From Tetrahymena thermophila SB210 (taxonomy: Eukaryota; Ciliophora; Oligohymenophorea; Hymenostomatida; Tetrahymenidae), in assembly GCF_000189635.1 (NCBI RefSeq), contig NW_002476258.1, forward strand, positions 62,001 to 126,000: a DNA stretch of 64,000 nucleotides, written 5' to 3'. The position numbers and the translations under genes are program-made. The notes under the pieces were generated by a model. It saw only the letters and a program-made list of their open reading frames with translations, had not been told where the DNA came from and ran no database searches. Numbering within the stretch: position 1 is the stretch's first letter; every line of letters begins with the position of its first letter. Shown here piece after piece: positions 953-64,000 of the stretch.

Positions 953-1600
953 ATTCTAAATTAATTTAAAAAATTATTCTTAAATACTGTAAAATTAACA
1001 AAAATGTATAATTTCTTTTTATATTTTATCAATTTGTAATTGATCTTATTTAAATTAAGAAAAAAATTATTTTCTAAATTATCTTTTAATATAAATAAAA
1101 ACGTTTTCCGCAAATTGAAATAAAAATCAAAATAAAATAATTAATTTCAAAATAGCTTAATTAAATTTGAATTTATTTATTAAAATTTAATAACCAACTC
1201 AAAATTATTATTTTTAAACTAATTTTTTGTTTTTTAAATCAAAAAAAATAGTATTTACTTATTTATTTATCATCTTAAATATGATAAAGAAGATAGAATA
1301 AATTAAATAAATAACTTGAAGATTTTAAGAGAGATAAATTAGCTCAAATCTAAGCTTTATGTTGAAATTATACAGATTCTTAATGAAACTATCAAAATTT
1401 CTCCTTTAACTGATCAAAAATATTTATAGAAACAACAAAATAAATTATATAAAGTGTAGTTAAAAGAAATAAAATCAAATAGCATTTTGATTTAATATTT
1501 TACCCTTTATTTTAAGACTGAAAAGATATTTAAGAATAGTTGAAATTTTTAATTTGAGTTTCTTTGTATCTAACTTCAAATTAAAATAAGACAGAAATAA
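953..1600. other. intergenic; 5' flank shared with the next paralog
   Basis: No complete gene. A Lys/Gln/Asn-rich open stretch at about 1270-1530 lacks a clear start. From about 1430 onward the sequence resembles 3985-4127, so the duplication that made the next two genes carried roughly 170 bases of upstream sequence with it. Indels between the two copies here suggest this part is not translated. Confidence 0.4.
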
Positions 1601-3082: not shown

Positions 3083-4127
3083 TTGATTGATGGAAACTGT
3101 AAGTTCTCTTTAATAAACCTCAATTTAATTAAATTAAAATTATTTTAAAAATTGTAATGTTCAAAAAATTAACACCAACATTGAGATTAACATTTTTCAT
3201 TTGAGATGGAGTTAATTTAGTATTGTCTCATAATTAGCATAAATGAAAAAAACTATTTTTGAGCTTATTTTAACTAAATAAAGTGAATTTATATATTGTT
3301 TATGTTTTTTGTACATTTTTTAAAACTAATTTTGCAATAATTTCTTCAAAATTATAAATGATAATGTAAGCTAATTACACTTTCTTTATTTAAAAAATCT
3401 CTCTAAAAAAAAGAAAAAGTAAAATTCCTCAAAAATGAAGCCTACTTACTTGCAAATTCTTCCTCAAGAAATAATTCAATAAAGTAGAGGAAAACAAATT
3501 CTCTGTTGTAATAACCAAAACCTTTACTGCACAAAAAGTAGATTTCCTATTACAAATGTAATATGATAACAACTTCGTCAAAATAGAAGCCATTTTCTCT
3601 TTAGATGAATTTGAATTCATATAATAATTACTCCAAAAGATGATATACCATAGTTTCTCATATATAAAGGACATATTCAGATAAAAACTTTTGATCAAAT
3701 TTAGTCCTTGTATGAGAAATTTGTATTTAATTTAAAATAATTTAAGCTAAATAAAATTATACAAATTAAAGTAGTTTGTTAGCAGAATAGCATACATAAT
3801 TATATAGTTAAAAATTAGCTTTATGTATACTTGGTTACCTCTACTAATGTAAATTTCAAAAAGTAATTAAAATTGTATAAATTCTAAGATATTTTGCTCT
3901 TAAATATTATTAAATATTATAAAAATTTTTTCAAATTAGAAAAATCTGATATAATATTTATGCAAACAAATATATAATAAATGAGTAATTAAAAGAAATC
4001 AAATCAAACATTGTTGATTTTAATACATTACCGTTTATTTTACAAATGAATAAATATTAAAGAAAAGTTGAAATTTTTAATTAGAGTGCTTTAAAATACA
4101 AATCAAAATAAGATAGAAATAGTCTAA
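3083..4127. other. intergenic between tandem paralogs
   Basis: Mostly A/T-rich. A 43-codon stretch at about 3434-3566 (starting MKPTYLQILPQEII) looks slightly protein-like but ends quickly and has no recognisable continuation. The last ~150 bases are homologous to the 5' flank of the gene at 1601. Confidence 0.4.
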
Positions 4128-5495
4128 ATGAAATAAATAAGTTGCTAAAAAAAATTTTTGCTAGTTTTTCTAAGAATTTTGCTTAAATGTGTATGGCTTA
4201 TCTCCTGCTTTGCTCTATTTTAAAAATAGTTTTATGTTTCTTTTTATATTTAAGTAGTCTTAAAGCTCTTTGGAAACCTACTTTTACCAATTATTGATAT
4301 CTTTATTGTTAACTTCAACAGATAATTCATTTTACAAAGATTATTATGGGATTTTTTTTACTACATCCCAAATTATGATTCAGAAAAGTTAGCTGCAAAT
4401 GTTGTTGGAGTTAATTCAGGTACTAAACTGTTTATTCATGCTATCTCTTTTTTTTCGTTTTTATATTTTAGCATATTTTATGAGTCTAACCTTTTCTGGA
4501 TTACAACATTTATTCTGAATTCAATGTTTCTATAGTTTTTGATGAATTTTTTAGATTTTGGCAATAAGGTAGGTATAATAGATTTAAAATATAGCTTTAT
4601 AAAGAATCTATGCATCAGCTATATTTTGATTTTTATTTCATACTTATAAGGACAGATATTTTGTATTTCTATAATACTGGCTTGGGTGATATTCTTTAAG
4701 TTGAAATTACATTAAACTAAATATTTTAATTAATACTATGAAACATATGAAGGAGAAATGAAAGAAAAATATGCAGCTTATTTTTAAATATCTCACCTGC
4801 ATTTAGGATTTTAAATATAATTTGATTAAGAGTTAAACTAAGGAGAAAATATTAGGGAGAACGAAGTAAGTAACTTGCATTTCTTTTTATAAAATACATT
4901 TATAATTATAGCAACGCTGTTTGATCTTTTGTTTATAAATTAAGGCAGATTTAATAATCTTAGAAATGCCCTTTATCTACAAATCTTATTTTTAATAAAT
5001 TCTTACTATCGTTCTATAATTTGGGTAACTAAATATTTTAAATACGGTCCCTAATCAAGATAAATAGTTATAAATGATTTCAACTCTGAGGATTTATAAT
5101 ATAAACAAATAATAGAAGAAAAATTCAAGATATTGCCATAAGAGTAGTTTATTTATTTAAAAATATAACAAAAAAGCTATATTTTTTATAAAGATCTACT
5201 TATATTTTTACTTCAACAAAATAAAAAAATCATAAGCATAATTTTCAAAACTTCTCATAGGAATAATATGTTTATTAAAAATAGCAAAAGTAGAATAATA
5301 GAGATATAAGCTATTGATATCCCTTTTGCAGTTGTGAGTTTAAAAATTTTAAGAAAAAACTTATAGTGTTTGTATAAGGGCTTTATTTGGAATAAATCAA
5401 TTTAATTTTTAGATAGTATTATTATAAAATAATTAAGGTATATTAAATTTATGATTTTTTTAATTTATAAATAAATGTTTTTTGTATAATTTTGA
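4128..5495 (+). CDS. multi-spanning membrane protein, copy 2 with replaced C-terminus
   Basis: A 455-residue ORF that is clearly paralogous to 1601-3082 over about 415 residues, including shared stretches such as GENIRENEV and NLHFFLQNTFIII. The same hydrophobic segments are present. Similarity stops abruptly after the motif SLKILRKNLQCLYKG, where copy 1 continues for ~75 residues (CHEDTKKC...). Here about 40 unrelated hydrophobic residues follow before TGA. This looks like the duplicated unit ending inside the gene, so copy 2 reads into what was flanking DNA. The frame is otherwise intact with no internal TGA, so it may still be expressed as a truncated protein. Whether it is functional cannot be told from sequence. 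Confidence 0.65.
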
Positions 5496-12122: not shown

Positions 12123-12855
12123 ATGAGATAAACCAAAAAATCTGGGATTGTTAAAGAAATTACCAAGCAAACTCCAATAGTTTCTTACACGTCACAAGCT
12201 AGAGTAGGAAGACCTGCACCTTAGTTTTGTGCAATGGCATATGATTAGGGCAATTTTAGATAAATAAGATTGGATGACTATTTAGGATAATATGTTTTGC
12301 TATTTTTTTATCCATTTGATTTTACCTTTGTATGTCCTACTGAGATAATTTCTTTTTCTGATGCATAACCACTTTTCAAAAAAATAAATTGCCAAGTCTT
12401 GGGTTGTTCTATTGACTCTCATTTTGTTCATTCAGAATGGGTTTAAACTCCTAAAAAGAGAGGTAATTCTATTTTTTTGAGGACTTTACATTAAATATAT
12501 AAAAAATAAATTAGGAGGATTAGGAAGTATAAATATTCCATTACTATCAGATATGAATAAGTAGATGTCAAAAGATTATGGAGTATTAATAGATGATGGT
12601 GATAATAGAGGAGCAGCGTATAGAGGAACATTTATTATAGATAAAAAAGGAATAATTAGGCATTTATCTATTAATGATTTGCCTGTAGGAAGAAATATTG
12701 ATGAATATTTAAGATTAGTTGAAGCATTTTAATTTACAGATGAGCACGGAGAAGTTTGTCCTGCAAAGTGGAGGCCAGGTGGCAAAGGAATGGTACCAAA
12801 CCATTAGTCTGAAAAGCTTAAAGAATTTTGGGAAAAAGAATTTGACAAGAAATGA
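12123..12855 (+). CDS. typical 2-Cys peroxiredoxin
   Basis: Two exons (12123-12462, 12515-12855) encode 226 residues. The thiol-peroxidase active site [14 protein letters not shown] carries the peroxidatic Cys, and the resolving Cys lies in [25 protein letters not shown], the GGLG motif at the splice junction and [11 protein letters not shown] complete the Prx1/AhpC signature. The enzyme reduces hydrogen peroxide and organic peroxides using thioredoxin-type donors (family knowledge). The C-terminus ends WEKEFDKK and lacks the YF motif that, together with GGLG, makes animal Prx enzymes sensitive to hyperoxidation, so it may be relatively robust (inference). A ~30-residue N-terminal extension precedes the domain. 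It is useful as a local comparison for the Cys-less peroxiredoxin domain at 57.6-58.5 kb. Confidence 0.95.
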
Positions 12856-14183: not shown

Positions 14184-17100
14184 TCAGCTTTCTAAAATGC
14201 TGCGCACTTTTGAAAACTTTTTGCTCATATTTTTTTGTTCAGGCTCTCCTATAATTTAATTATTGGAGTGAGGGATATCATAGATTGACTCATGAGGTGT
14301 CTCTCCTTATCCTTGCACCATTTACTACGCTTAAGGATTAAAAACGTTCATATGCAACCTAGACATCCTATGTCTATTTGGAGACACTTCAGGTGAAATA
14401 TTAGATTGATCAAATGTTTCCATATTGTTAATACTTCCTTCTCTTCTTATTTAAGTGACTGAAGAAAATTTATTTCTTTTAAGTCTCTAAGACTGCAATG
14501 GACTATCGTTTTCATCATTATCTTCTTCTCTAGGCATTTCTTTTACATTTTAAAATACTAAGGTACCTAACTTAGATTAAAAATCTGTTCTCTACTTAGC
14601 ATGTATAGATGGAGAAGCATACTCATTATTGGCTTGTTCATTTTGTTAATTGTCAAAATTAGCAACTTTTGATCTGTTTCTTTTTTACTTAAGTTCTTTA
14701 AGGTATTCATACAAACTGTACAATGAATCATAAATGATTCCTAGAAATTACCACAATATTACAAAAGTAATTAAAGCTATTGCAATCCATCCTAGTGTAA
14801 TACGGTGACTCTCAGGTTGAGATTTAGGATCATCAACTAAAAGGGCAATTATAATTTGAATAGCAATAAGAACAAACTCTGCAGCGGCATTCTTAATATT
14901 TTCGTATTTACTTTCAAAAGGCTAAATTACTATGTAGTAGGCTGCAACTATAACATTCATTAAAGTTATTATGCCTAATTAAATATAGCTGTATTTGTAC
15001 AAGTATACAATGATCAATGCAAATATTATTTTGCGATAGTATAAAATAGCCAAGTTATATTTTGAAAATTTCATGACTAGTTTTTGTCTCCATCCAATTT
15101 ACTAAAGGTTTAACTGAGATTATGATTAACTGCTTTGAAATAAATTATTTGTCTATGGAGGAGTATTGTTTTCATCATCTTTTTGGATTAATGAATCTTT
15201 ATTACTGAAGAGCTTTAAGCCTGAAATTAAAGATGAATATTTAGTTCTCATATATTTATCATCTTTGATATTTGGATTGTTAACAATTACATAAGTTATT
15301 ATTATTGGAGCTCCTAAACAAATTATAATCCATAAGGCAAACATGGAATAATTTAATGGACAAGATGAATCTCCACAATCGAAGATATAAAATTGTAAGA
15401 AAATACCAACAATTATGTAAGTGTAATTGCACCATATCAAGTCGAAAAATCCACCGTATTCCCATGTTTCATAACAAGCTCTTCTACAATAAGCTTAAAC
15501 GAATTTGATTTCTATTCCTGAAAATAGTTTAGCAAAAATGTATAAACAGAAGATAATCAGAACAACACTAATACTTTAGCCTGTACTATTTAAAAAGTAT
15601 GAATCAGTTTATTATTGCATGAATTACGGAGGAGCTTATTATACATAATTCGGATTGATTGCATTTTGAAAGAAATTAGGAATAAAAGCCATTTAGAAAT
15701 TCTAAAAGATTCCATAGAATTAGAATATATTGATTGGGAATCTAACGTTGATAAATAATAGGTAATAAAGGAAACCAGTGAGATCGATAGTATTTATTAG
15801 CACATAAAAATTTCCTAAAAAAGCAATAGGGATTAAACAGCTAATCATTGTTGTAGCTACTGCAGTCCCTCCTGTTTTTAAGTCTTATGCCTACTTTAAA
15901 TCCGTAGGAGATACATAGACAAAAGGATCTAACTCTTAAGAAACAGTAGATGGTTTCATAAGATTCTAAGATAGGAATGTTTTATCAGAAATAGTCACAT
16001 AAATATATTCATTTTTAATATTACCATCACATTGAATATCAACCATTAATGTGTAATTATCCTTTTAACCCATAAACTGGTAAGTGTAGTTTTTAAAATT
16101 AGAAATAGTGATGTTAAGATTACTTTGATTTATGGTAGTTGCTATTAGCTAATTTTAAAATACTAATTCAAGCTTGTAACCGTTAGTATCGACCTTCTAT
16201 TTAATTGTGTAGCTGTTGCTTGAAAAATTTAAAGTTTAGCAGCTTTTAGAAGTGTTATTAAAAATCATTCCTGGTACACAATATGTGCATGAATAAATAT
16301 CTTAACAGCCTATACAGTTCTAAAAAATGCACCTACATTGGTAATCCTAATAGTTATTTTAATTTGATACAATAGCAAGAGTATTTTAAGGACATTAATA
16401 AGTAGTCTAAACATTTATTTAAGAAGGTTATATTAAAATTAGTTATCCTGATAGCCTATCTTGATAATACCCATTCGAACTGAAATTAGTGCAGACTCCA
16501 TCTTAGTTATATTAATCTATTTTGGAATAAATAAATAGCTTAACTTATTTCACATTAAATTAGTAGAAGAATAAATAAAAAATTTGTTAAAAGATCATTT
16601 AAAAATTAATTTTTTAATAAACTGTAACTAAATTAATTATTAAACGAATTACGATACTTTAATAGATAAATTAAAAGGAAGTATGAATCAAAGTTTATTT
16701 TATTAATTAATATTTTTATCAAAATTAATAAAATCTTTATTTAGTGATTTTATTTTACCACCTATTTATTGATCTTTTCTTTATCAAATAAATTAGGTCA
16801 AAGAGAAAATCATTTATTTATTGATTTTAGTTAATTACGTACTTAAATAATAATCTTCAATTAGTTATAACAAAAACCACAAATTTAATTTTAACTTACT
16901 AGTAATAGTTAAGTTTTTAATTCAATATTTGATGAATTATGGTTGGCTGATTGCGTAATATACCAAATTAAGAAGTGATCTTTTAATTTTATTTAAATTT
17001 AATTAAATTTACTTGCTTAACAGGCAACCTGAGGGGCAGGAATGTTAGCGGTACATGTTTGTGATGATGAGTTTAATACAAATCCAGGTTTACACTTCAA

Positions 17101-19784: not shown

Positions 19785-22700
19785 TCAACTTTCTAAAATA
19801 GCTTTGATCTTATTGAACCTTCCTTTCGAAGGTGTTTAAGAATTCGTTCCTATTGGTGATTTTTATGTTTCAGGATTGATTATTTGATAATTAGAATTTG
19901 GTATGTCATAGGCAGACTCACCGGCATTTTCGTTTTACTACACATTTGAAACTTGGGTAGGTTGAGGGATAAAGTTTGTTATTGATAACCTAGATACACG
20001 CTTTCTCTTTGGGGATACTTCAGGAGAAGCATTTGTGTGATCAACAAAAGTTTCTAAGTTATTAACACTTGATTCTTTTCTTAACTAAATTTGAGAGAAC
20101 TTAGCTCTTTTTAATCTTTGAGATTAAACAGGCAGACCATTTTCCTCTTCATCTTCAATAGGTTCTTCTTTGACATTTTAAAATTATTAGTTTTCTAACT
20201 TTTATAGAATAGTTGTTCTCTTTTTAGCTTCGTTTGAAGGAGAGATATCATGGTTATTTTCTTAGCCATGCTCTGCAGCATCGAAGTTAGCAACTTTAGA
20301 TCTGTTTCTTCTGCTTTTTAGAGACTTTAGATAAAGGAACAACTCGTATAACACTTCTACACTCATACTTATAAATGACCACAAAATTACAATACATACC
20401 AATGCTATTCCAATCCATCCTATTAGAATGCGGTTTGCTTCACTTTAAGACTAGGAGTCTTTTACCAAAAAAGCAAACAAAATTTAAATAACAATCATTA
20501 CTATTTCAAAAGCTGCATTCTTATAATTTTCATATTTTTTTTCATATGGCTGGATCAACAAGTAAAATAAAGCGACCACAACATTCATCACTGATATTAT
20601 TGCAATTTATGCATAAGTATATTTATACAAATATACAATTATTAAAAGGAATGCTATTTTGCGGAAGTATAGAAGCACAATATTATATCTAGAGAATCTT
20701 CTTACCATTTATGCTCTCCATCCCTTCTCTTCTTCTTAAACTGAAGATTTTGATTAGGTCAAGTTGGGGAATAAATTATTAGTATCGGGAGGAGTATTAT
20801 TTTCTTCGTCTTTTTCTCTTGTTAAAAAGGAATCCTTATTGCTAAAAAGCTTCAATCCAGCTATTAAAGAAGAACACTTAACTCTCATATATCTGTCATC
20901 TTTTATATTAGGATTTGTTTTTATTAAATAAAAAACTACACAAGGAATAGCTGCGCAGAAAAATGCCCAGCAACCAAACCAGAAATAGTTAAATCCACAA
21001 GAATTATCAGAGCAATCAAATTTGTAAAATTGTATAAACACATAACCTAATACGTAGATATATATGGCCCAAACAGCACTTAATATTCCACCGAATTCCC
21101 ATGTTTAGTAGCATACTCTCTTGCAATAGTCCTAGATATTAGGTAGCTATATTCCAGAGAATATTTTTATCAAAAGATAAACACATATAATTACAATAAA
21201 AAAGCTGATTATGCTTCCTGCTGTATTCAAGAAATATCCATCAAATTATTATTGCATGAATTAGAGGGTAGAATTTTAAAAGTAATTCGAATTCACTGCG
21301 CCGCTAAAGAAATTAGGGAAAAATCCCATTTAAAAGTTTTTTAAAACTTCAGCAAAGTTCTAAATATTGATTGGATAGCGAATGTTCAAGAAAAACAGGA
21401 AATACACAAAACCAATAAAGTCAACAGTGCTTAGTAACGCAAAGAAGCTACCGAATATCGCCATAATTATAAATATGCTCATAGAGGCTTTAGATATTTT
21501 TCCTCCTGTTTTGTTTAAATCTTTCGCAGAGTTAATTTCTGATTAAGAAACAATAACAAATGTCAATAATTAACCTTATACAGAAGGTTAAGTGATCAGG
21601 TTTTTAGCTAAAAAATCAGAATCTGTAATAGTCAAATTGAACATTTTGTTTTTTACATTTTCTGTACATGAGATGTTGATAGCTATGGTGTTATTTTAGA
21701 TTCCTATCAATTAGTAGGAGAAGCTATTAAAGCTAGAAATAGTCAAATTCAAATTATTTTGAGATAATTATTGACTCACTAAATTATTATCAAAAATCAA
21801 TTCTAATAGATATCCGGTTTCTGTAACTTTCTGAACAACTTTGTAAGAATTTTGTGAATATGTTAGCTTAATACATTTCATCTAAGATTAACTAAATTCC
21901 ATTCCAGTAATACATAAATCACAAGTGTCTATGCTTGAACAAGCAGTACAGTTAGCAAACATGCATCTGCACTAATAATTTTGATAATTATTATCTTTCA
22001 GCACAATGGCTAGAGAATTCTAAGGACATTTATAGGTCTTTTGGACATCCACAATTGCACTATTTATAAGCTTGAAAGATCCTGTTTGCCTATCTTAGTA
22101 ATATCCAATAGAACTGAATGGCTAGCATTTACCACCAAATGAATACTAATCTTTATAGATAAAAATACTTAATTAGTTATAAGAATATTAATTAAAACAC
22201 GCATTTTCAATTTTAAAGTCTAAAAAATAAATTAAAATCTATTCATTTTTTCTTCTTGGAATTAAGTAACTTAAAAGTTAGATAATTGATTTTTAATTAG
22301 AAAAAAAGATAAAATTAATTCTCCCTAATCTGTTTCTGATAAGACTGTATCATAAATTAATATAAAACTTAAATCACCATAGAATTTAATTAATTTTAAT
22401 TAGCTTTCAAATAAAGATATTAAAGTATTCTCAAACGTAATATCCACTAAAAAATCAAATTATTTGAATAACTTTACACATTTTTAAGTATGTGTTTTAA
22501 ACATTTTTTTTCCAAATTTAAATTTTCCCACTTTGTAAAAAAATAATTAACTAGCTTTACTTGCTTAACAAGGAGATAGAGGTGCTGGGGAATTTTAATC
22601 ACATTATTTGGAGGAATTTAGATTAAAACCAGAACTGCATTTTAGACAAACTTCCTTTCCACTATACTAAGCACAAGAAAAACAGTTAGCTGTAGAGCAA

Positions 22701-29800: not shown

Positions 29801-32800
29801 AAATTTAGTCTGTCTTTTTGTAATTTTAAAATTTATTTAAATAAAAAAATTAAGCTGAAATGGAGAAAAAAAAAGTAGAAATTGAAAGAATATTAGAAAT
29901 TTATGATATCTTAGATGAATTTATGTACAGATTAGAGAAAGAGGCAATCAAGAGCAAACAAGAAATGCAATTCCTTCCTAAGAAAACTTTATAAATGCTA
30001 GAAAAGAGAAGTAATCTTCTTGATGATATCAAATCTAATTTCTTGAGAGATTAGTAGAAAGATTAAGATATGTTTAGGAAAGCTATTGATGCTGCCCAAA
30101 AAAAGATTATGACTTTCCATAGCTACACCAATATCAATCAACATGAAGAAGTAGCTCAAAAAGCCACTGAATTATATAATGAATTAGCCAAAATGATTGA
30201 ACAATCTCGTAAATTCAACACAAGAGAACAACTCTTTGGTTAGCAAATGACAGATTATTCCAAAATTATTTAAATGCAAAAGGTATGTTTGTTTTATCAT
30301 TTTTAAAATCAATTTTGAATATTTCAAATTAAAATTTATTAATTTTATAGGACTTCACTCCTTATTATAATTTGTGGACTATATCTAGCAAATGGTTTGA
30401 AAATATTTAAATATGGCTTTATAGCAGTTGGGATAAATTAGATGCTCCTTATTGTGAAAAATTTGTTGAAGATGGATTTAGAACTTTGGGCTAGACAATT
30501 AGATTCTTTAAAGAAAAGAATCTTTCTGCTGTACAAAAAATAGCTGAGAAAGTTAAAAAGGAGTTTGATGAATTCCGTCCAAAAGTCCCTTTGATGGTTG
30601 CACTTAAGAAATAAGGAATGAAAGATGTAAATTTAATTTTTAATTAACTAATTAAATATTTGGATGTATTTAACTAAAATAGAGACATTGGGATGCAATT
30701 ACAAATAAAGTTGGATTCGAGGTTAGACCTGATAATAGTTTCAACTTTTAAAAAGTTTTAGATATGGGCTTGATGACTCATATTGAACAGTGTGTAGAAA
30801 TAGGTGAATAAGCAGCAAAAGAATACACTATCGAAGAAATGTTAAAAAATATGAAATCAAAATGGGCTACTGTGGAATTTGATCTAATGACCTACAAACA
30901 TTTGTTTATCATCAGGGTAAATTTTTGAAATTTAATGTAAATAGATTTTAATCAAAAAATTTATTGAAGGGATCTGATGAGATTTAAGCTCTCTTGGATG
31001 AACATTTAGTAAATACTTAAGCAATGCAGTTTTCTCCTTATAAAAAACCATTCGAAGAAGAAATCATAGAATGGAATAATCAACTTAAATTGATGAGTGA
31101 TATTTTGGAAGAATGGATTAAAGTGCAGCTGTAGTGGATGTATCTTTAACCTATTTTTGACAGCAAAGATATAGCAAAATAACTTCCTCATGAAACAAGA
31201 AAGTTCAAATAAGTTGACGATATTTGGAAAAAAGCTATGATTTAAGCTAGAGATAAAAAATTAGTTATAAGAGTATGTAGTGAGCCTAACTTACTAGAAA
31301 ATCTTCGAAATGCTAATGAAAAATTTGATTAAATACAAAAAGAGCTAAATAATTACCTTGAAAAGAAGAGAGAAAAGTTTGCTCGTTTTTATTTCTTATC
31401 CAATGATGATCTACTCGAAATTCTTTCTTAAACCAAAGAGCCTACTGCTGTCTAGCCTCATTTGAAGAAGGTTTTTGAAAATATTCATTAAATTGAATTC
31501 GATGATTAAAAAATCATTCATGCTATGTTTTCAGCTGAAAAAGAAAAAATTAACTTTGTCAAAACTGTAAACCCTAATCATAAAAATGTAGAAGAGTGGA
31601 TGGGTGAAGTAGAAAATATGATGAAAGCCTCTGTAAGATTTGAGCTCTTTAACTCATATCAAAAGTATCCAGACACACCTAGAACTCGTTGGGTTGTTTC
31701 TCATCCAGGTTAGTGTGTTCTCAATGGTTCTTAGATGCACTGGACTCTAGAAGTAGAATAAGCTTTAAAATAAAATTCTGTTAAGAAATATTGGGATGTC
31801 CTTAGCTCTCAAGTAATTATTAAATAAAATATTTAAAATAAATCTTCAAGCTTTTAAGTTTTCAATAAAATAATTGACAAATACAACTATAAAACCTTAA
31901 GAATTAGAAAATAAAATTTTCTTAGAATAGGATTAATTAAATAAAATGAAATATTTTGAGAATTGTTTATTATTATTGAATGAATATACTCAATTCAATA
32001 AAATATAATTTAATGATAATTTATTTAATTTTATAATTTTTCATGCCATTTTTTAAAAAATAAAATAATAGCTTAATGATTTAGTTGATTTAGTTAGAAC
32101 AAAGCTTACAAAGTAACAGATGGTTACAATTAATGCACTTATTGTCATTGATGTGCATGCAAAGGATGTGACTGAGATTTTGTGGAGAAATGAAATCACT
32201 GACATTAGTGCTTTTGAGTGGATATCGTAGCTAAGATATTATTGGGAAAAAGAAAATTGTATGGTCAAATGTATTTAAACCTCATTCCCTTATGGTTATG
32301 AGTATTTGGGTAATACTCTTAGATTAGTTATTACTCCTCTTACTGATAAGTGTTACATGACTTTGATGGGTGCTCTCAAATTAAATTTAGGAGGTGCCCC
32401 TGCAGGTAAAAAATAAAATTTTCATTTATTTTTCAAATAATTAATTTTATATTATTCAGTTATTTACTAATTAATTAAACAAATTTTATTTTAATTGAAT
32501 ATGAATTATTTTTTTATTGATTGAATCAGTCAGTCACAATTGTTAAATTTAATAGTTAGTTGAGTTATTGAATAATATTTCAAAAGTATTCAATATAATT
32601 ATATAATTAAAATGAATAGGACCTGCCGGTACAGGTAAAACAGAATCGACAAAAGATCTTGCTAAAGCACTTGCAAAGTAGTGTGTAGTATTTAATTGTT
32701 CTGATAGTATGGATTATATTATGCTTGGTAAGTTCTTTAAGGGTTTAGCTAGTGCTGGTGCTTGGTGCTGTTTTGATGAGTTTAATCGTATCAATATTGA

Positions 32801-35800
32801 AGTATTGTCAGTTATTGCATAGTAATTGCTAATTCTATTTGGTGAAAAAGCAAAAGGTTCTTCCTAGTGTGAGTTTGAAGGAAGTATAATAAAAATCTAA
32901 CCTACATTTTGTGTCTTCATCACTATGAATCCAGGTTATGCTGGTCGTACTGAATTGCCAGACAACTTAAAGGCCCTCTTCAGAGCAGTAGCTATGATGG
33001 TTCCTGATTATGCTATGATTGGTGAAATCATGCTTTACAGTTTTGGTTTCAAATAGGGTAGAGATTTAGCTAAGAAAATGGTTGCTACTTTTAAGTTATC
33101 TTCAGAATAATTATCATCTTAAGACCATTATGATTATGGTATGAGAGCAGTTAGAAGTGTCATTAATGCAGCTGGTCTTTTGAAAGCAGCAGAGCCTGAT
33201 ATGAATGAAGAACAACTCTTACTTAGAGCCTTAAGGGATGTTAATGTGCCCAAATTCCTTAAAGATGATCTTCCTCTATTCGAAAATATTATTTTAGATC
33301 TTTTCCCAGGAGTTGAGAAGCCTGTAATTAACTATGGAGAATTGCTTGATGCAATGTCAAAGTAAAGTAAAGTATTAGGATTATAGCCCGTTAAGCCTTT
33401 CCTTGATAAAGTTATTTAGCTTTATGATACAATTTAAGTTAGACATGGTCTCATGCTTGTTGGACCAACAGGAGGTGGTAAAACTTCAAATTACAGAGTT
33501 CTCTAAAAGGTATTTTTTGTCAAATCAATATTCATTCATTCATTAATTATTTTATTTTATTTTATTTTAGGCTATGACTTCATTAGAGAAAAAGGGATAA
33601 GCAAAAGTTAATACTCATATTATGAATCCTAAATCAATCACTATGGGATAGTTATATGGATAGTTTAATGATGCCACTCATGAGTGGTCTGACGGTGTTC
33701 TTGCTTATATTATTAGAGAAACAGTCAAGGATTAATCAAGTGATAGACATTGGATTGTTTTTGATGGTCCAGTTGATGCTATTTGGATTGAATCTATGAA
33801 TACAGTGCTTGATGATAATAAGAAATTATGTTTAAATAGGTAAATAAATTTATCACTAAAATTTTTTAAGAATTAAATTAATTTAATTATTTTAAATTTA
33901 TTAGTGGCTAAATTCTCACACTTACTCCTTACATGACTATGATGTTTGAAGTAGAAGACTTAGCGGTTGCTTCTCCTGCTACAGTTAGTCGTTGTGGAAT
34001 GGTTTATATGGAGCCAAGTACAATGGGTTTAACTCCTTTAGTTAATAGCTGGATGGACTTTAGAATCACTGAGTCTTTCAGAGCAAATAAGCTTTTTGTT
34101 CCTAAATTGCAGTCATTATTTGAAGAATATTTAGAATTTTGCATCGATTTTATTAGAAAAAATTGCATAGAAATAGTTGATTCTATGAACAACAACCTTG
34201 CTTAGTCACTAATGCGTAATCTAAACTGTTTCTTAGTTAATTATGTTGATACAGATTTTAAAAAAATACCTGCTGAAGAAATTGAAAAATTACTTGACCA
34301 TCTTGAATAAATATTTATTTTTAGCTTGATTTGGTCAATAGGATGCACAATCACTTATGAAGGCAGGGTTAAATTTGACAATTATCTTAGAGGTCTTATG
34401 AAATAAAATCAATGCTCTTTTAGTGTAATACTTTTAATTTAAGAATTATATTTTTTTAAAATTAATAACTTGTAATAAAATAGTTCCCTTAAGAAGGCTT
34501 GGTTTATGATTATTAATATATTGAGAAAATTGGTGAATTTTAACATTGGAAGGAGAATTTTAAGGATTTTGCCATTAATGATAAGCTAGGTTACCATGAA
34601 ATTATGATTCCAACAGCAGATTCCACCAGAAATATGTATTTTACTAAAATTCATTTAACTATTGGATAGCACGTTATGTCACCTGGCCCAACTGGTACAG
34701 GTAAGAGTTTAAATCTCTTTTAACTTCTTGGTTCTTAAATGGATGAATAATTCTAATATATTGCTCTTGCTTTTAGTGCTTAGACTAGTGCTAATTAAAC
34801 TTAGGATACAATTGATAGCAAAATGGATAAGAGAAGAAAAGGCTACTATGGCCCACCTATCGGAAAAAAATGCATTATCTTTATTGATGATTTGAACATG
34901 CCTAAAAAGGAAACTTATGGAGCTTAGCCTCCTATTGAACTTATTCGTTAATTCATCGATCATAGAGGTTGGTATAATAGAAAGGATCTCCAGTTTATGA
35001 AATTAGAAGATATTATTCTTCTTACTGCTATGGGCCCTCCTGGTGGTGGTCGTACATTTATAACAAACAGATTTGTCAGACATTTTAACATTCTAGCTTA
35101 CACTGAATTAGATGAAGGAACAATTAAACAAATTTTTGGAACTATGTCCTCCTTTTTCTTAAGTAAATATTTTGAGTTTATTTGATATTTTAATTATTAT
35201 TAAAAAATAAAAATAAAGATAAATTCGAAGAACCTATTAAAAAGTGCATTTAATTGGTTGTTGACACTTCTTATAATGTTTATTAGAGAGTAAGAGAAGA
35301 ATTGCTCCCTACTCCTTCAAAATCTCACTACACATTTAATTTAAGAGACATTAATAAAGTATTAATAAAAAATTTAATTAATTAAAATTATAATTAATTT
35401 CTAAAAATCGAATAGGTCTTTTAAGGTGTTTGCAATGCATCCTCAAAGCATGTTACTGAATGTGCATAATTAGTAAGACTTTGGTTCCATGAAAATATGA
35501 GAGTTTATCATGACCGTTTAACAACAGAAGAAGACAGATAATACTTAAAGAATCTCTTGATTGGATATTTTGAGCAATTCGGCTTGAACTAAAAAGATGT
35601 TTTAGACATGGATAGAATCATTTTTGGTGATTTTGTTTAAGGCAGAGATTCTGATTCACGTCCTTATTAATAAGTAAAAAATAATTTGCAAATTAGAAGT
35701 AGATTTTAATTAATTTTTAATAAAGGTACCTGACTTGAATGAATTACTAACTAAAATGAATGATTTCTAAGATGAATATAACAACGAAGTCGGAGTTCAT

Positions 35801-43409: not shown

Positions 43410-44381
43410 TTCCAGATATATATTATTCATACATTCATTCATTATAAGTGTTTTTTATGTTTTTCCTAAATAAATTGAATAATATTCACTAAATGTTAAC
43501 TAAACATAAGATCATCTTTGATTTTTTATAAACTTAAAAAAAGCTACTACTTGTTCTTTTTTTGACAAATTTTTTACTTTAAAGTTTTGTTTTAGCATTA
43601 ATAAAATTAAATTTAATTAATTTGAGTTAAAAAAGATAAATTAATTTTATTTATTAAATTCATGTAAAATAAATTTGTTTTTTGATTTTATTTTAAGTTA
43701 AATTTATTAAAAAATTTAAGATATTTATTTACATCATATATAGGAAGAAAATAATCTAAAGGAACTTCAATTGATACTCAGTCTTCTCACAAAAATATAT
43801 ATGAATAGCTTTTTTACTTTTGTGTTATCATAAAATAAATTGCCTAAAGTTAATAACAGTGTAAAATGTATAAACTAGGTTCCTCGGACAAAATTTGTCT
43901 CAAAATTAATAGGTACCTTACTTTTATTTGATTTTATATAGAAAAAATAAAATTTGGAAATAAAATTGTGCTCATTTTTAATAATTCTTATTTTATAAGG
44001 ATAGGTTTTATTGTTTGTACCTTATTGGTGTTTTATCTTATATACATTATTGAATTATAAATTGATGTATTATTTATTATCTTAAATTAAAGTATAAAAA
44101 AGAATTTTCATAATATAAAAATGATTAATAATAATTTTACTTATCTAAAATGAAAAAAATAAATAAATTATTTTATTTCTGCAATTATAAAATTTAGTAA
44201 TATTTGATAATAAATTAATTCAAATAGCATTTATAAAACCACTCTGAGATCATTTAAAGTTTTTAATGGTAAAAAAAACATGTTTTATTCTGGATGGAAT
44301 AGAGAATTAATTTTTACTCAAACAAATAAGTATTTTTCTTATTTCTTAAAACTAAATAATAAATAAATAACTAGCTAGAGA
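43410..44381. other. intergenic, nothing recognised
   Basis: About 970 bases of A/T-rich sequence between two plus-strand genes, with no supported ORF, RNA gene or repeat. Confidence 0.4.
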
Positions 44382-45470
44382 ATGAATACACTTAAAACAT
44401 TTTTATTTACAATTACAGGCTTTTTTTCAACTGCCTCAGCAAAAAAAAATTTCATCTAAGTAAAAGATGAAGCAAATTATTCATATTTTTAATCCAGTGT
44501 CAATGATCTACTAACATATGATATAATGAGCCTGACTTAATATAAAAAACATTTGTATTAAAAATTTATAGATGCTTTGACTGAATAAGATAAAATGCAA
44601 GTAATTTCCTATTATCGAATCAATAAAGATGCAAAATTTGAGAATGAATATGAAAACCTTTAATAATAAATGTCAATCCATGATACACAAACAAGCTATT
44701 CATATCTACCAAATAAATCAAAGAAGTAATGGCATGTCAATTTTGCAGATCAGCATCTTTTTGGATTTTATAATACTAATTTATTTGCTTAGGATGAAAT
44801 TTAATGTGCTGAGCATCCTCTTTTATCTCATGTCCGATCAGCAGCTCAATACCTAGGAAATAGAGTAGCTCCTTTAACTATAGAAAACGGTCCAACTCCA
44901 ATTTTAATTAAAGATGTCCACAGACTAGGTTTTGTAAACATAATGCCCACAAAGGAAAATAGAAATGGTATTTATGGTAATAACTTTGCCAAAGCAAGTT
45001 TGGACTATATAGATAGAATGAGCTAGTAAATCATAAATGATAAGCCTTTAACTAATTTTATAGCTATGGCTGCTCTTGGTTATGGATCAGGCACTTACCA
45101 AACTTATGAAATTGAATTCTTATTTTAAACAGCTAAAAACTCATTTAGTTTAGCAAAAGAACTGAGTGGAGATATGGAAGTAGAACTTCATACAGGAAAT
45201 TGGGGATGTGGTGCTTTTGGAAATAATAGATAATTAATAGCTAGTATATAGCTATTTGCAGCACATTTAAGTGGTATTGAAAATATTGTCTATCATACTT
45301 TTGATGAGCAAGGAAAAAAAGGTTTTGAGTAGGGCAAGAAGATCTATGAAAATTTTTTAAGAGACATAAAAATAAATAATTGTGAATCGCCTAACTTTTA
45401 ATTAGATTAATAATTCATAATGTATTTGAGTAAATAAAATTTTCAATGGGGATATTCTGATGGAAACTGA
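44382..45470 (+). CDS. secreted PARG-like (poly(ADP-ribose) glycohydrolase-related) protein
   Basis: An intronless 362-residue ORF. The first ~20 residues (MNTLKTFLFTITGFFSTASA) form a signal peptide. The core keeps PARG-family landmarks in order. The FADQHLFGFYNTNLFAQDEI segment corresponds to the catalytic loop. ENGPTPILIKDVHRLGF follows, then the diagnostic HTGNWGCGAFGNN (residues ~270-282), IQLFAAHLSG and VYHTFDE. Known PARGs have a Gly-rich loop leading to Gln-Glu-Glu. Here the Gly run is missing and the triplet is Gln137-Asp138-Glu139, so the key last Glu is kept but the loop has changed. The family cleaves ADP-ribose polymers, normally inside cells. The signal peptide suggests a secreted, lysosomal or surface role. 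Activity cannot be judged from sequence. Confidence 0.82.
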
Positions 45471-57327: not shown

Positions 57328-60300
57328 ATGGGTCAATGCTAATAGTCACATATGAATGGATATGATGATAAGAACACTTTTGATTCTCAAGATATGCCTA
57401 AGCCTTAGGAAAAGAGTAACTTTTTTTCATTATTCTATATATATTCTTAGCATATTAATATGATTTTTGATACAAATCATCTTTTTTAGGTACTTGAATG
57501 TTTATTGCATTAAACTAATATAAAAATTCATTTTGTTAAATTCACAATTATGAAAGATAGACAAAATTTTTAGCTGAATCATTCAATTTATTTATATTTT
57601 TACTTAAAATTAGAGTATCATAACTATAATCCACAGAGCAAGAAGTCTAAAAATGACATACCTACTTTTACTAACATTAATTAGGAAGACAATTATAAAT
57701 AAGCTGTTAAATCTGAAAATAAACTTGAAAATAAAGACAGTGCTAGAGAAAGCGCAAAACAAAACTATCAATCTGCTGATTATCAATACACATTTATCAA
57801 GCGTCCTGCTCCCAACTTCTCAGGGATGGCATATTTCAACAAGGGATTCAAGAAAATATCACTAAGAGATTATAAGGGTCAATACGTAGTGCTATTTTTC
57901 TTTCCATATGATTTCTCTGAATTAAGTAGAAAAGAGATATTAGCTTTCTCTTAATTGAATGACAAGTTTGTAAAAGCAGCCTGTCAAGTTATTGGTTGCT
58001 CTTAAGATAGCTAATTCGCTCACATGAATTACTGTTAAAAGCCTTAATCAGAGGGTGGCTTAGGAAACTTAGAAATTCCTCTGTTATCTGATGTAGACAA
58101 GTAGATTTCAACAAGTTATGGAGTAGTTATAGAAGATGGGGAAGCAGGAGAGAAAGGTGAGTGTATAACAAAATTTTAATTTAGATTTTTTAAATATTTT
58201 AGAATTGCTTCAAACATGTTTTATAAATTTTAAAAAATAGGTGCAGCATTCAAGTCTACATTTATTATTGACAGCAATTAAATTTTAAGACATATGAGTA
58301 TTAACGATATTTCTATTAGTATTAATCCAGAAGAGATTCTTAGACTTGTTCATACTTTCTAATAGCATGATAGAGAAAATCCATTAAAGTAGCAAATGAC
58401 AGGAGGTTGTCCATTTAATCACAATGCTAAAGAAGATATTGATACTTTCTCCAGGTACTAGAGAAAGAAATCAGGTATAGATATTAATATGCTTTTTCAC
58501 TCTCACTCACTAAATATAATTCTTAATTCAAATATATAGCCGACGATCAAAGCAATAAAAACGAAAGTGCCAAGTAAAGCAATCAAAGCAAAAGGTCCCA
58601 TTCTAATTAAAATAATGATGGAAAAAATGAAGAAAAATAAATACCTTTAATAATAAGACTTGGAGGTGAAGAAGTTGTCCAAGATATAGCAGATAGATTT
58701 GTCAATGAAATTTATGGCGATTAAGATTTAAAAAAACTATTTTTGAATAAAACAAGCTAGAGTAAATAAAAAAAAGTTATCGGCCAATTCCTTAAAACTT
58801 ACTTTGGTAGTAGATAAATGTAATTTTTATTTAATCTTTATTCTAAATTAAATTATATCATTTAAAAAGTAAATCTTTTTCCAAACAAAAAAGAAAAACT
58901 CATATTTTAATTAAAATATTTATTCAAGCAAAATTTAATGAATTTAAATATTTTAAATATAAACTAAATGAATTAAGAAATATATCTATTTAAATTAAAA
59001 ATTTGATTTAAACAGTTTATTCAAGTAAATTTGTTGATTAGAAATATTTATTCAAGCAAAATTTAATGAATTTAATTAATTTTTAAAATAAACTAAAAGA
59101 ATTAAGATATTTTTTTATTAAAATAAAAAATTTGATTTAAACAGTTTATTCAAGTAAATTTGTTGATTAGAAATATTTATTCAAATAAATTTATTGAATT
59201 TAATTAATTTTTAAAATAAACTAATAGAATTAAGATATTTATTTATTTAAATTAATCATTTGATTTAAACAGTTTATTAAAGTAAATTTGTTGATTGATT
59301 AGAAATATTTATTCAAATAAATTTATTGAATTTAATTAATTTTTAAAATAAAAGAATTAAGATATTTTTTTATTAAAATAAAAAATTTGATTTAAATAGT
59401 TTATTATAGTTAATTTATCGAATTTAAATATTTTTAACAATTAATTTATTGATTTGAAACACTTAAACAAATAGATTTAAAGTATTTATCAAAATAAATT
59501 TTTTGATTTGAAATGCTTTTAAAAAAAATAAAATTTCAAAAATTAAATATGTAAATAATAATTGATAAAAATTTAAAATGAAATTAAAGGTATTAAGGAA
59601 GAAATATGTAAGAAGCACATAAAGATTTAGGATTAAATGATGACCATTTCAATAAGGCCTCAGAATTTTTCAAGAGGATCCTAAAGGAGGATTTAAAGGT
59701 AAAACCACAACTTGTATAGGAGGTTATGATGCTGATTGAACCATTACGTTCATAAATTACTTAAAAACCATCTGAATCACTCTATAACAGAGTAAATAAA
59801 GAAGAAGGTATCAGAAAGGCTGTTAAATATTATTTTAACAAGATACTTCAGATTAATGAAATAAAACCTATTTTTAGTAAAGTAGATACTAATTAGGTCT
59901 AGGAATAATATGTCTAATATTTATCATTAGTATTTGGTGGTCCATCAAAGTAAAATTTAGTTTTATGTTTTACTTGATTTATAGCATATTTTTTAAATTA
60001 AAGATATAAAGGTAAATAAATGAGAGAAGCTCATTCTCACGCACACATTTCGGAGAAGGTGTTCACTTTTTGTTGCGCTTAAATCCAATAAGGGTTCAAA
60101 GAAAATGGAGTTGATACTCATTCAATAAATGAAATTGGAAGACTCTTAGAGTGTTTGAGAAGTGAAATCCCCAAGAAAAACAATACTTTATATGATAGAC
60201 TAGGAGGAATTGTAGTTATTGAAAAGGCTGTGAAAAAATTGTATGAAGAAAAATTAATGAATATCCATCAATTAAAAGATTTCTTCAATAAAGTTGACAT

Positions 60301-61016
60301 GAAATAGTTAGGTTAAAAGATGACAGATTATTATATTATGATTTGCGGAGGACCAAACAGGTAAATTTTTATTCTTTTAGAGAAAAAAAATGAGTAAATA
60401 AATTATCTTTTAAAAATAGATATAAAGGAAAAAGTGCAAAAGAAGCACATAGTAGATTTACTATTATGTCAAGCTAATTCGAGATATATAAGAACTTACT
60501 CAAAGAGTCTTTTACAGAATGTGGTTCTACTAAAGAGAGTATCATAGAATTCATGAACTTAATTGATACTATTAAAGTAGATATTGTAGGAGGTAAGCCA
60601 CCTTCTTTGTTCGAAAGAATTGGAGGTGATGACTTCCTCACTTTATTTACTGAAAAATTCTTTGATAAGATTATGGAAGAAAAAAGAATTAGACATTACT
60701 TCATTAATGTAGAGCTGGCTCAAGTTAAAAAACATTTTAAGGATTATCTGAACATGGCCAGTGGTGGTTCAACAAAGTAAATTAAATTTTTTTCAATTAT
60801 TCTTTATATTAAATCTAAATCCTTAATAACAGATATTCAGGCCAAAATGTAAGAGATCATCATGAATAAATGGATATAAGCGAAAAAGATTTCAATGTTT
60901 TCATGGAAGTATTGAAAAAGACTTTAGAACAAATGTAATTAAAATAAGAATTAGGAGTAGAATTTTTGAATTTCTTTGAAAATATGCGTAACATGATAGT
61001 TTCTGAGTATGATTGA
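57328..61016 (+). CDS. peroxiredoxin-like domain fused to four truncated globins, MGQC N-terminus
   Basis: Eight exons (57328-57415, 57614-58156, 58241-58474, 58540-58819, 59590-59949, 60004-60360, 60420-60776, 60833-61016) give 800 residues. MGQC at the N-terminus fits myristoylation plus palmitoylation. Residues ~86-270 are a Prx1-type fold (FIKRPAPNFSGMAYF, GCSQDSQFAHM, GGLGNLEIPLLSDVDK, STFIIDSNQILRHMSIND). The active-site motif reads PYDFSELS, so Ser134 stands where the peroxidatic Cys should be. A Cys-Pro at 267 aligns with the resolving Cys. Four truncated-hemoglobin domains follow, starting near 323, 445, 563 and 683 (for example SLFERIGGDDFL). Each has the post-E-helix GGP-Y-x-G region and the proximal His in EAH-type motifs at 392, 512, 631 and 750. 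Exons 5-7 are 360, 357 and 357 nt with identical phase. Heme and ligand binding near membranes is inferred. Confidence 0.9.
58914..59420. repeat. intronic tandem repeat, four ~125-base copies
   Basis: Inside the 770-nt intron 58820-59589 of the globin fusion gene. Copies begin at about 58914, 59042, 59171 and 59303, each starting AAATATTTATTCAA and ending GTTTATTxAAGTAAATTTGT or similar; copies 2 and 3 are closest. It explains why this intron is ten times longer than its neighbours. Confidence 0.85.
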
Positions 61017-62440
61017 GTAATTAATACTAAATAACTAACTAACTTCCTTACTAACTAAATATTAACTAGCTTTGTTTGAATATAACCTTGATCTTAAAGT
61101 AGTAATAAATAAATAAATAAATATATGGTCGGTTTATCCATCTACAGCTATTCTGAAAATAAAAGAAAATATTTTTAATGAATTTTTCCAACATTAAATA
61201 GATTTAGTAAAATAATTAAATAAACTGATAAATAATACACACACATAAACTAATAAATATTAATTATAAAATTATAAATTAAATAAATAAATAAACAATC
61301 TAATAAATAAGTAACTATCTAATATAGTCCTATCTATTATTTAGACTTCATCCAATGATTCATTATATTTATCAATTATCATACTATTAATTAAATTTTA
61401 AAGCTATTTATGATGTATCAATCTTATTTTAGCTCAAATGTATTTATCTGTGTTCTTTTTTATATAATTATATTGTATTAATTAATCACTTTTTCATTTT
61501 TTAATATGTTTTTTCTTAATAAAAGTGCTTAATTATAAATAAATAAATAACTATATTTCTGTTATTTAGACTTTATTCAATCGTTATTAGATTAGTAATA
61601 ATGCTACTATTAATTATATTTTTTCTTTCTTATATTTATAAAATGAAATATGAATTTTCATTGAGTTTAATTTCTATTTGTCTCTCTTTCTTTTTTATAA
61701 TTATATTTTTATATATATAGTAATGTAAGGTACTGCCTTTTTCAAGGCTACAAAGTGAATGATAACAAGTTATATTATTTAATAATTTATTACTAAAATT
61801 TTTTAAATATGACTAACTAACTGGCCTTCTCTAATTCCTACTATATTTTTAAGTATATGTTTTAAATACAAATATTAAGATTAAATAATTAATGTTAAAT
61901 AAATTTTTCTCTGATATCTCATCATAAAAGCAAATTTATAAATTAATATTTGATAATTAATTATTAAATTTTATTTGTTTTATTTATCCATTTATAATTA
62001 ATTAATTAAATTCCATAAATTGCTATTCATTATTTTTGAAAAAAAAAATAAATGATATTATAGATTAAATAATACAATAGATTAGAAGAAGTAATTATTT
62101 ATTGTTTTATTAATATCCTTTAAATTTATATTTATTAATAAAAATAGTTTATAAACTCTTCACTTTTATCTCATTAGGTTTTCCATATTCATCTCAAGTA
62201 TATTTTATTAATAAATATTATTTTTATTATTATTAATATTTTTATATATTTAGCTTACAATTTATTTAAATAAATAATTTTTTTTATAGAAATTATCATC
62301 ATTATTCATTGATTTTTATTAAAAATAAAACTTTTTTAGCTATTTTAACTTAATTTTTAATTCAATTTTGAATTATTTATTATTCATTTTTTATTATTTG
62401 ATATTTTTTCTTCATTTTTTGCTATTAAAACTTACACTTA
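61017..62440. other. 1.4-kb A/T-rich region, no gene recognised
   Basis: Contains TAAC/TAAA simple-sequence tracts near 61040-61330 and long T-rich stretches. No LRR exon or other coding frame could be supported before the repeat array that follows. Confidence 0.4.
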
Positions 62441-62714
62441 ATAAAAGCAATTTATTAGTTTTGGATTGTAATATTTTTAATTATAAAAGTTAATTTAAAA
62501 CATTAAAGCTCATTTAATTTATTTGGTTTATTTTCCTTTTTCTTTTGATTGTGATTTCATTTTTTTTCATTCTTTTTTAAATTTATTAATAATTAATTAA
62601 TCTTATTATTTATTTCATATTTTTTCTTCATTTTTTCCTTCTAATTAACTAGAGTGAAATGCCAATTTAATTTACAAAAGGCAAAATGTAATATATCTTA
62701 ATAACATAATAAAT

Positions 62715-62731
62715 AAAGCTAAATTAGCTTT
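62715..62731. repeat. 17-base inverted repeat
   Basis: AAAGCTAAATTAGCTTT is a near-perfect palindrome (8-base arms around one A) within sequence inserted between two array units. Its role is unknown. Confidence 0.6.
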
Positions 62732-63200
62732 AAACAGCTTTATTTTTGAGTTTTTAGAAACCTTTAAATTCACAAAATGTAAATTTTGAAATCATATTTA
62801 CCGTGCATTCTTATAACAAATCATTTTTTTTTGAAAAATTTTAAGAATTCAAAAATCAAGAGTACTTTTTAGCTTCGTTTTTTTCGAATCTAATTTAAAG
62901 TTTTTAAAATTGGTGATGAAGGTGCATCATAGTAAAAACATTTTATTTGTTTTGGATTGTGATATTTTTAATTATAAAAACTAATTAACTAATTTAAAAC
63001 AATAAAGCTCTTTTTTACTTTTCTTTTTCAGTTATTTGTGCTTACTTTTTTTTTGTTCTTTCTTTGTTAATTTAACTCATCATTTTATTTTCAACTTTTG
63101 CTTTTAATTTTTAATTAATCCTATTATTTCATATTTTTTCTTCATTTTTTCCTTCTAATTAACTATTTAATGATATATATTTTCTTCAATATTAAAAAAG

Positions 63201-64000
63201 TTCTAATGAAATTGGTGAAGAAAGTGCATCAGGCTTAGGTTCTGCTTTAGCAAAGTGCATTAATCTCTCAAATTTGACACTTGAGATTTAGTAAAAACAG
63301 TTTATTTGTTTTGGATTGCGATAATTTTAATTATAAAAATTATTTTAAAACAATAAAGCTCATTTTTCTTTTTCTTTTTATTGTGCTTGCTTTTTTTTTG
63401 AACTTTATTTGTTAATTTAACTCATCATTTTATTTTCAACTTTTGCTTTTATTATAAATTAATCTTATATTACATATTTTTCCTTCATTTTTTCCTTCTA
63501 ATTAACTATTTAATGATATATTTTTTCTTCAATATTTAAAAAGGTGCAATTAAATTGGTAAAAAGGGTGCATCCAGCTTAGTTTCTGGTTTAGAAAAGTG
63601 CATTAATCTCTCAAATTTGACACTTGAGTTTTAGTAAAAACAGTTTATTTGTTTTGGATTGTGATATTTTTAATTATAAAACTAATTTAAAACAAAAAAA
63701 CTCTTTTTTTTTTCTTCTTTTTATTGTGCTTGCTTTTTTTTGTTATTTGATTGTTAATTTAACTCATCATTTAATTTTCAACTTTTAATTTTATTATTAA
63801 TTAATCTTATTATTTCATATTTTTTCTTCATTATTTAAAAAGTTCTAATTAAATTGGTGACGAAGGTGCATCAGGCTTAGGTTTTGGTTTAGTAAATTGC
63901 ATTAAACTCTCAAATTTGATACTTGGTCTTTCGTAAAATCAGTTATTTGTATTGGATTGTGATATTTTTAATTAAAAAACTAATTTAAAACAATAAAGCT
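63201..64000 (+). CDS. second leucine-rich-repeat gene, partial, exon array running off the window
   Basis: Three intact exons, 63201-63290, 63544-63633 and 63843-63932, are each exactly 90 nt, start after the second base of a codon and end the same way. This is the phase used in the LRR gene at 48.9-52.0 kb. Translations read SNEIGEESASGLGSALAKC, CNQIGKKGASSLVSGLEKC and SNQIGDEGASGLGFGLVNC, each followed by INLSNLTL-type LRR strands. All have GT donors and AG acceptors. No start exon was identified to the left, so the gene either begins with eroded repeats or its 5' end lies in the unassigned region. The last visible exon is followed by the start of another repeat intron. Likely an LRR scaffold; whether expressed or a decaying array cannot be told without the rest. 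Confidence 0.7.

Follow-up and report, generated by a model that had tools for sequence, protein, structure and literature searches.

What would a protein do that joined a peroxiredoxin-like domain to a row of globins, and does such a protein exist? Both questions are raised by a gene at positions 57328-61016 (+) of a 64,000-nucleotide stretch of Tetrahymena thermophila SB210 DNA (contig NW_002476258.1, positions 62,001 to 126,000 of the forward strand), which we call the window. A preliminary description of this DNA had proposed that one continuous model of eight exons links a Prx1-type fold to four truncated globins, and that the product senses or scavenges peroxide, nitric oxide (NO), or oxygen. 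Here, we examine the gene model, the domains, the loss of catalytic residues, and the distal residues of the globins, all as they can be read from the DNA. We tentatively favor the view that the peroxiredoxin part is a platform without its catalytic cysteine and that the globins it bears form a heme array responsive to gas or redox state.

A predicted gene joins a peroxiredoxin-like domain to four truncated globins

The window is ciliate-like, and indeed Tetrahymena-like, DNA with an A+T content of 76% and a genetic code in which TAA and TAG are read as glutamine (NCBI table 6). Under this code, eight exons separated by seven GT..AG introns encode an 800-amino-acid protein with a calculated mass of 93 kDa, ending at a TGA stop. 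The coordinates and exon count of the earlier model were right, and its 800-codon frame closes.

To establish the domain content, we searched the translation against protein family and structure databases. Redoxin, AhpC-TSA, and Bac_globin were the only Pfam families to reach the cut-off. AhpC-TSA (PF00578) matched residues 92-229 (E = 5e-31), and a sequence search of the PDB matched the peroxiredoxin part to peroxiredoxin-2 over residues 91-285 (E = 3.7e-42). For the remainder of the protein, we cut four consecutive segments of ~120 residues each before the Pfam search, and all four scored over the Bac_globin cut-off (E = 4.4e-9, 1.1e-10, 1.2e-11, and 2.2e-12). The best PDB match of the globin part was the group-1 truncated hemoglobin 3aq5 (E = 3.4e-15), a Tetrahymena pyriformis protein. 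Ten NCBIfam matches, every one under the cut-off, served only to back the class assignment, and neither Pfam nor NCBIfam searches found a reductase domain in the chain. As far as sequence goes, these Pfam and PDB matches support the proposed union of a Prx1-type fold with four truncated globins.

The peroxiredoxin part occupies the first three exons. Exon 1 (57328..57415), whose ATG lies in a AAAAATGG context, encodes a 29-residue N-terminal peptide (MGQC...) and ends in phase 1. We make no claim of myristoylation for this MGQC terminus: residue 6 is Gln, and the PROSITE pattern needs S, T, A, G, C, or N there. Exon 2 (57614..58156) contains a low-complexity stretch followed by the bulk of the peroxiredoxin domain, including an altered active-site loop, DFSELSRKE (Ser134). 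Exon 3 (58241..58474) supplies the rest of the domain, with the motif AFKST (Lys215) and Cys267 in a GGCPF tail. Intron 3 (58475..58539; 65 nucleotides, phase 1) is the entire gap separating these exons from those that encode globins.

The globin part begins in exon 4 (58540..58819), where a polar linker (ADDQSNKNESAKQSNQSKRSHSNQ...) leads into the first half of globin 1 (Gln365 at E7). Exons 5 (59590..59949; 360 nucleotides), 6 (60004..60360; 357 nucleotides), and 7 (60420..60776; 357 nucleotides) start and end in phase 2, and each spans a globin boundary, encoding one globin's second half followed by the first half of its successor. Thus, exon 5 completes globin 1 (proximal His392) and opens globin 2, exon 6 completes globin 2 (proximal His512) and opens globin 3 (Tyr at B10, Lys607 at E10), and exon 7 completes globin 3 (proximal His631) and opens globin 4 (His726 at E10). 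Exon 8 (60833..61016) finishes globin 4, supplying its second half with the proximal His750, and ends at the TGA stop.

The reading frames around intron 3 bear on whether the two parts belong together. Read onward, the peroxiredoxin frame meets its first stop at 58744, already within exon 4. The reading frame used by exon 4 opens only at 58443 and contains no ATG in either the exon or its upstream open part, which leaves the first half of globin 1 with no start codon of its own. In addition, globin 1 is complete only if exon 4 is spliced to exon 5 over intron 4. A single gene, with splicing predicted from the DNA, is the simplest reading of this arrangement.

The fused peroxiredoxin domain has lost its peroxidatic cysteine

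To assess the catalytic residues of the fused domain, we used two comparators, Prx2 and a second peroxiredoxin gene, which sits in the window at 12123-12853 (+), ~44 kb ahead of the fusion gene. The second gene encodes an intact typical 2-Cys peroxiredoxin of 226 amino acids and has one intron of 52 nucleotides (12463-12514), for which three acceptors keep the frame; we used the acceptor that gives back the GGLG motif. Its product matches Prx2 with an E value of 2.4e-78, carries the motifs FVCPTE, AYRGTF, and HGEVCP, and keeps both the peroxidatic Cys and the active-site Arg.

The fused domain is 46% identical to this second peroxiredoxin. GGLG is common to the fused domain and both comparators, and RHxSIND is shared by the fused domain and the second gene. 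In alignments with both comparators, however, the peroxidatic Cys is replaced by Ser134 (loop PYDFSELSRKE), and the active-site Arg, found in AYRGT or AYRGL in the comparators, is replaced by Lys215 (AFKST). In the family, the peroxidatic Cys sits in a PxxxT/SxxC loop, and the Arg is catalytic. Four cysteines, Cys153, Cys158, Cys170, and Cys267, lie in or right after the fused domain. The last of these, followed by Pro in GGCPF, resembles a resolving Cys but by hand count stands 7 residues farther from the FQ pair than does the Cys of HGEVCP.

Because Cys has given way to Ser134 and Arg to Lys215, we expect no peroxide reduction by the chemistry of the family. Judged by these residues, the fused domain is a pseudo-peroxiredoxin and no scavenger by the usual route, and the suggestion that this part of the protein scavenges peroxide is not supported.

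The four globins keep the proximal histidine and differ in their distal pockets

We aligned the four globins to 3aq5 and assigned positions B10, E7, E10, E11, F8, and CD1; our B10, E7, and E11 assignments agree with the three substitutions that separate 3aq5 from 3aq7, 3aq8, and 3aq9. All four domains have the proximal His F8 and Phe CD1. The distal side varies. From globin 1 to globin 4, B10 is Val, Phe, Tyr, and Phe; E7 is Gln, Val, Leu, and Val; and E11 is Ile, Tyr, Met, and Phe. Tyr at B10 and Gln at E7 therefore occur once each and Gln at E11 never, and the complete polar distal set (Tyr B10, Gln E7, and Gln E11) is found in none of the four. At E10, the residues are Val, Gln, Lys607, and His726; the Lys of globin 3 aligns to a Lys of THB1, and the His of globin 4 to a His of 2ksc, a Synechococcus protein. 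Identity is 20-32% among the four globins and 25-32% between them and 3aq5. The first GG motif is kept in three of the four (NK in globin 2), as is the second (GS in globin 1).

What do these distal residues imply? E7 and E11 vary among members of the family (PMC4720485), so the incomplete distal set speaks to function more than to membership. Since no domain has the whole B10/E7/E11 polar set, canonical O2 binding or NO dioxygenation by these globins is doubtful, judging from the aligned residues. The E10 residues of globins 3 and 4 have precedents as ligands: LysE10 is the sixth ligand of the heme iron in THB1, THB2, and THB4 (PMC7082302), and a distal His in GlbN and a distal Lys in THB1 are described as ligands (PMC11904497). 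Of the proposed sensing or scavenging device, peroxide scavenging by the peroxiredoxin part is not supported, given Ser134 and Lys215, and a sensing or redox role may still be served by the heme domains.

Splice junctions and growth of the globin array

The splice sites of the fusion gene were set by hand with the domains as a guide, and we asked how far the reading frame constrains them. The joined frame contains a single TGA in 801 codons, plus 29 TAA and 12 TAG codons read as Gln. The other five frames contain 15 to 39 TGA, and ~17 would be expected from base composition. The corresponding probability of meeting no TGA (3.7e-8) is an unfair test, since the junctions were selected for openness. 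Base composition also separates the two classes of sequence, with a guanine-plus-cytosine (GC) content of 26-34% in exons and 11-22% in introns.

Retention of intron 3, 4, 5, 6, or 7 breaks the frame. Intron 1 (57416..57613; 198 nucleotides, phase 1, 17.7% GC) and intron 2 (58157..58240; 84 nucleotides, phase 1, 15.5% GC) leave it open and would be harmless to the frame if retained, so their support comes from low GC content (18% and 16%) and, for intron 2 only, from interruption of the domain. We then considered other GT/AG pairs up to 30 nucleotides from each junction, varying a single intron each time. There was no alternative that kept the frame for intron 1, whose acceptor was picked by eye and for which six acceptors are in frame over a wider range. 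Introns 2 to 7 had 1 to 12 such alternatives each, including seven for intron 4, so that an open frame is not enough to define each junction. The alternatives shift the length of the product to 784-803 amino acids, and none of them detaches the peroxiredoxin from the globins.

Under the junctions selected here, introns 4 to 7 split all four globins at one site, just ahead of the Y-x-G turn, in phase 2. This regularity is partly a product of junction choice, because phase-1 alternatives exist within 30 nucleotides for introns 4, 5, and 7 (intron 6 has phase 2 only) and the chosen junctions are those that keep the domains intact. Exons 5 to 7 are phase-symmetric, and copying any one of them would add a globin without breaking the frame. 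Skipping them is likewise frame-neutral, as it is for exon 2, exon 3, or both together. Given the low identity among the four globins, the duplications are probably old. The exon pattern suggests a route by which a repeat hemoprotein can grow, namely, duplication of phase-symmetric exons. Intron 4 itself (58820..59589; 770 nucleotides, phase 2, 11% GC) owes much of its length to an AT-rich 128-nucleotide tandem repeat present in four copies (58910-59416).

Other features of the window

Several further features were observed elsewhere in the window. Beyond the fusion gene, AT-rich DNA at 62425-63997 contains tandem repeats of ~343 nucleotides, some with a leucine-rich-repeat-like reading (SASGLGSALAKCINLSNLTLE); these are perhaps leucine-rich-repeat mini-exons that run past the end of the window, or the remains of such exons. 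Exons of an axonemal dynein heavy chain lie at 30883-33671 (+), and probably extend more widely, with mammalian-type DNAH1 as the best PDB match among the best 60 of 83 and no near-identical chain in the alignment inspected. The catalytic domain of a poly(ADP-ribose) glycohydrolase is encoded at 44208-45470 (+; Pfam E = 2e-13). Two pairs of related neighboring long frames have no Pfam match: those at 1544-3082 and 4050-5495 (+) are 77% identical across 424 aligned residues, and those at 14184-16718 and 19785-22349 (-) share 50% identity over 809.

A possible heme-bearing peroxiredoxin platform

How might a pseudo-peroxiredoxin and four unlike globins work together? We put a probability of roughly 0.45 on the reading introduced above, in which a Cys-less peroxiredoxin platform bears a heme array responsive to gas or redox state; for this reading we infer splicing, heme binding, oligomerization, a partner, and a signal. 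Prx1-type proteins assemble into dimers and rings, and their isoforms can mix. Since the sequence of the fused domain has been kept and its catalysis lost, its remaining use is probably assembly. It could form Prx-type dimers or rings of its own, or dock into the rings made by an active peroxiredoxin, the product of the gene at 12123-12853 being one candidate. Either arrangement would gather many globin domains, up to 40 hemes in a ring built from ten copies of the fusion protein. Within the array, the Lys at E10 of globin 3 and the His at E10 of globin 4 would be possible sixth ligands, and the four hemes might then differ in ligand binding and redox behavior. The outcome would be a device that answers O2, NO, or redox state, or else an electron shuttle, positioned beside a peroxidase and itself no scavenger of peroxide. 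In a bolder form of this proposal, the dead peroxiredoxin would insert into rings of active peroxiredoxin and couple thiol peroxidase activity to O2, NO, or redox state through four differently ligated globins, in one particle whose mass could reach about a megadalton; we think this form unlikely.

Work on engineered proteins offers a precedent for the platform. Yeast Tsa1 or Tsa2 without both catalytic cysteines (Ser in the Tsa1 construct), when fused to roGFP2, is oxidized in trans and requires an active partner, and cysteine-mutant fusions of human, plant, and Leishmania peroxiredoxins behave in the same way (PMC13038412). Several points nevertheless weigh against the platform. The partner pairs tested in that work were 78-96% identical, compared with 46% here, and an N-terminal GFP tag destabilized decamers, those of Tsa1 most, while some isoforms remain dimeric (PMC13038412); a bulky fusion may thus fail to form rings. 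Ring formation by the fused domain is assumed, being carried over from its family. Globin 2 without its first GG motif and globin 1 with GS at its second are hints of drift. The E10 residues may also mean less than proposed, because LysE10 faces away from the heme in the structure of THB11 (PMC7082302), a basic E10 is a general heme-supporting trait of truncated globins (PMC4720485), and distal ligation is not inferable from sequence (PMC4304232).

Other readings of the locus have to be set beside this one. The model might misjoin two neighboring genes, one peroxiredoxin-like and one multiglobin, or a single gene might give a globin-only product by skipping, and exons 1, 2, and 3 do each end in phase 1, leaving exon 1 in frame when joined directly to exon 4. 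The gap is only 65 nucleotides, however, with no stop of a first gene before exon 4 and no start codon for a second, either in exon 4 or elsewhere in its open frame, and we consider these possibilities very improbable; two separate genes were rejected because neither a start nor a stop lies between the parts. An active role for the peroxiredoxin part, whether in scavenging peroxide or as a thiol sensor, is likewise very improbable. Its family match is strong and its four cysteines could be called on, but we rejected an active peroxiredoxin on the replacement of the peroxidatic Cys by Ser and of the active-site Arg by Lys, and the characterized Prx1/AhpC enzymes reportedly pair a peroxidatic Cys with a resolving Cys (PMC13038412).

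The globins could instead be the working part, with ordinary O2-binding or NO-dioxygenase activity and the peroxiredoxin merely a tether. His F8 and Phe CD1 in all four domains would suit this role, as would Tyr B10 in globin 3 and Gln E7 in globin 1. It seems unlikely all the same: the Pfam and NCBIfam searches revealed no reductase domain, and no domain has the complete B10-E7-E11 set, the network of which is named in the title of a 2011 paper by Igarashi as critical both for bound oxygen and for the detoxification of NO in a Tetrahymena pyriformis protein. According to a review, NO dioxygenation is a common and ancient function of globins (PMC3820574), but hydrophobic residues at E7 and E11 accompany low O2 affinity in group N (PMC4720485). 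Slightly less likely is a structural protein, perhaps of cilia or cortex, that uses both folds as building blocks and performs little or no heme chemistry. The missing peroxiredoxin catalytic residues, the drifted distal residues, and an identity of 20-32% among the globins would all be expected of such a protein, but every one of the four domains retains the proximal His and Phe CD1 despite this divergence, which points to a kept heme, and no ciliary-named molecule appeared among the best 60 of 145 PDB matches of the peroxiredoxin part or among all 33 of the globin part.

Comparison with known systems

Has a protein of this kind been seen before? Among the titles and openings of abstracts listed in literature searches aimed at such proteins, there was no description of a peroxiredoxin-globin fusion, which does not establish its absence from print, and the same gene may already be present, unremarked, as a predicted protein in public databases. 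The whole protein had no pattern match in a collection of viral contigs, and the peroxiredoxin part (203 of 800 amino acids) had 79 pattern matches in a collection of prokaryote contigs, none of them a relative by tblastn; both results say little about ciliates.

Each part of the protein can be set beside known systems. Typical 2-Cys peroxiredoxins (Prx1/AhpC, such as Prx2 and yeast Tsa1 and Tsa2) share the full domain and GGLG with the fused domain, as the match to peroxiredoxin-2 in the PDB reflects, whereas the fused domain has Ser for Cys, Lys for Arg, a tail Cys off the standard spacing, and a globin fusion. Group-1 truncated hemoglobins (3aq5, THB1 [4xdi], and the cyanoglobin 2ksc) resemble the globins in domain length, His F8, Phe CD1, and the Y-x-G turn, but the fusion protein has four such domains per chain, incomplete distal sets, and a pseudo-peroxiredoxin partner. 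Several truncated globins in one chain are not without parallel, since Vinogradov et al. reportedly described multidomain group-1 globins in ciliates and green algae in 2013; we know of no peroxiredoxin partner for these proteins.

Fusions of globins to other modules provide further comparisons. Globin-coupled sensors usually place the globin first and a transmitter domain after it (PMC1457004), whereas the globins here are C-terminal and no transmitter is among the Pfam families at cut-off. A nitrate reductase of raphidophyte algae joined to a truncated hemoglobin is similar in that a microbial eukaryote has linked a truncated globin to a redox protein, but that fusion is an active enzyme of another family and has no peroxiredoxin (PMC3820574). 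A further comparison is with the roGFP2 probes, in which a peroxiredoxin without its catalytic Cys bears a redox-responsive cargo; those probes are engineered and carry a fluorescent protein (PMC13038412), whereas the fusion here is natural and carries heme domains at its C terminus. If the platform reading is true, this protein would be a natural counterpart of the engineered cysteine-less peroxiredoxin probes, and the thiol peroxidase and globin redox systems would be tied together within a single chain.

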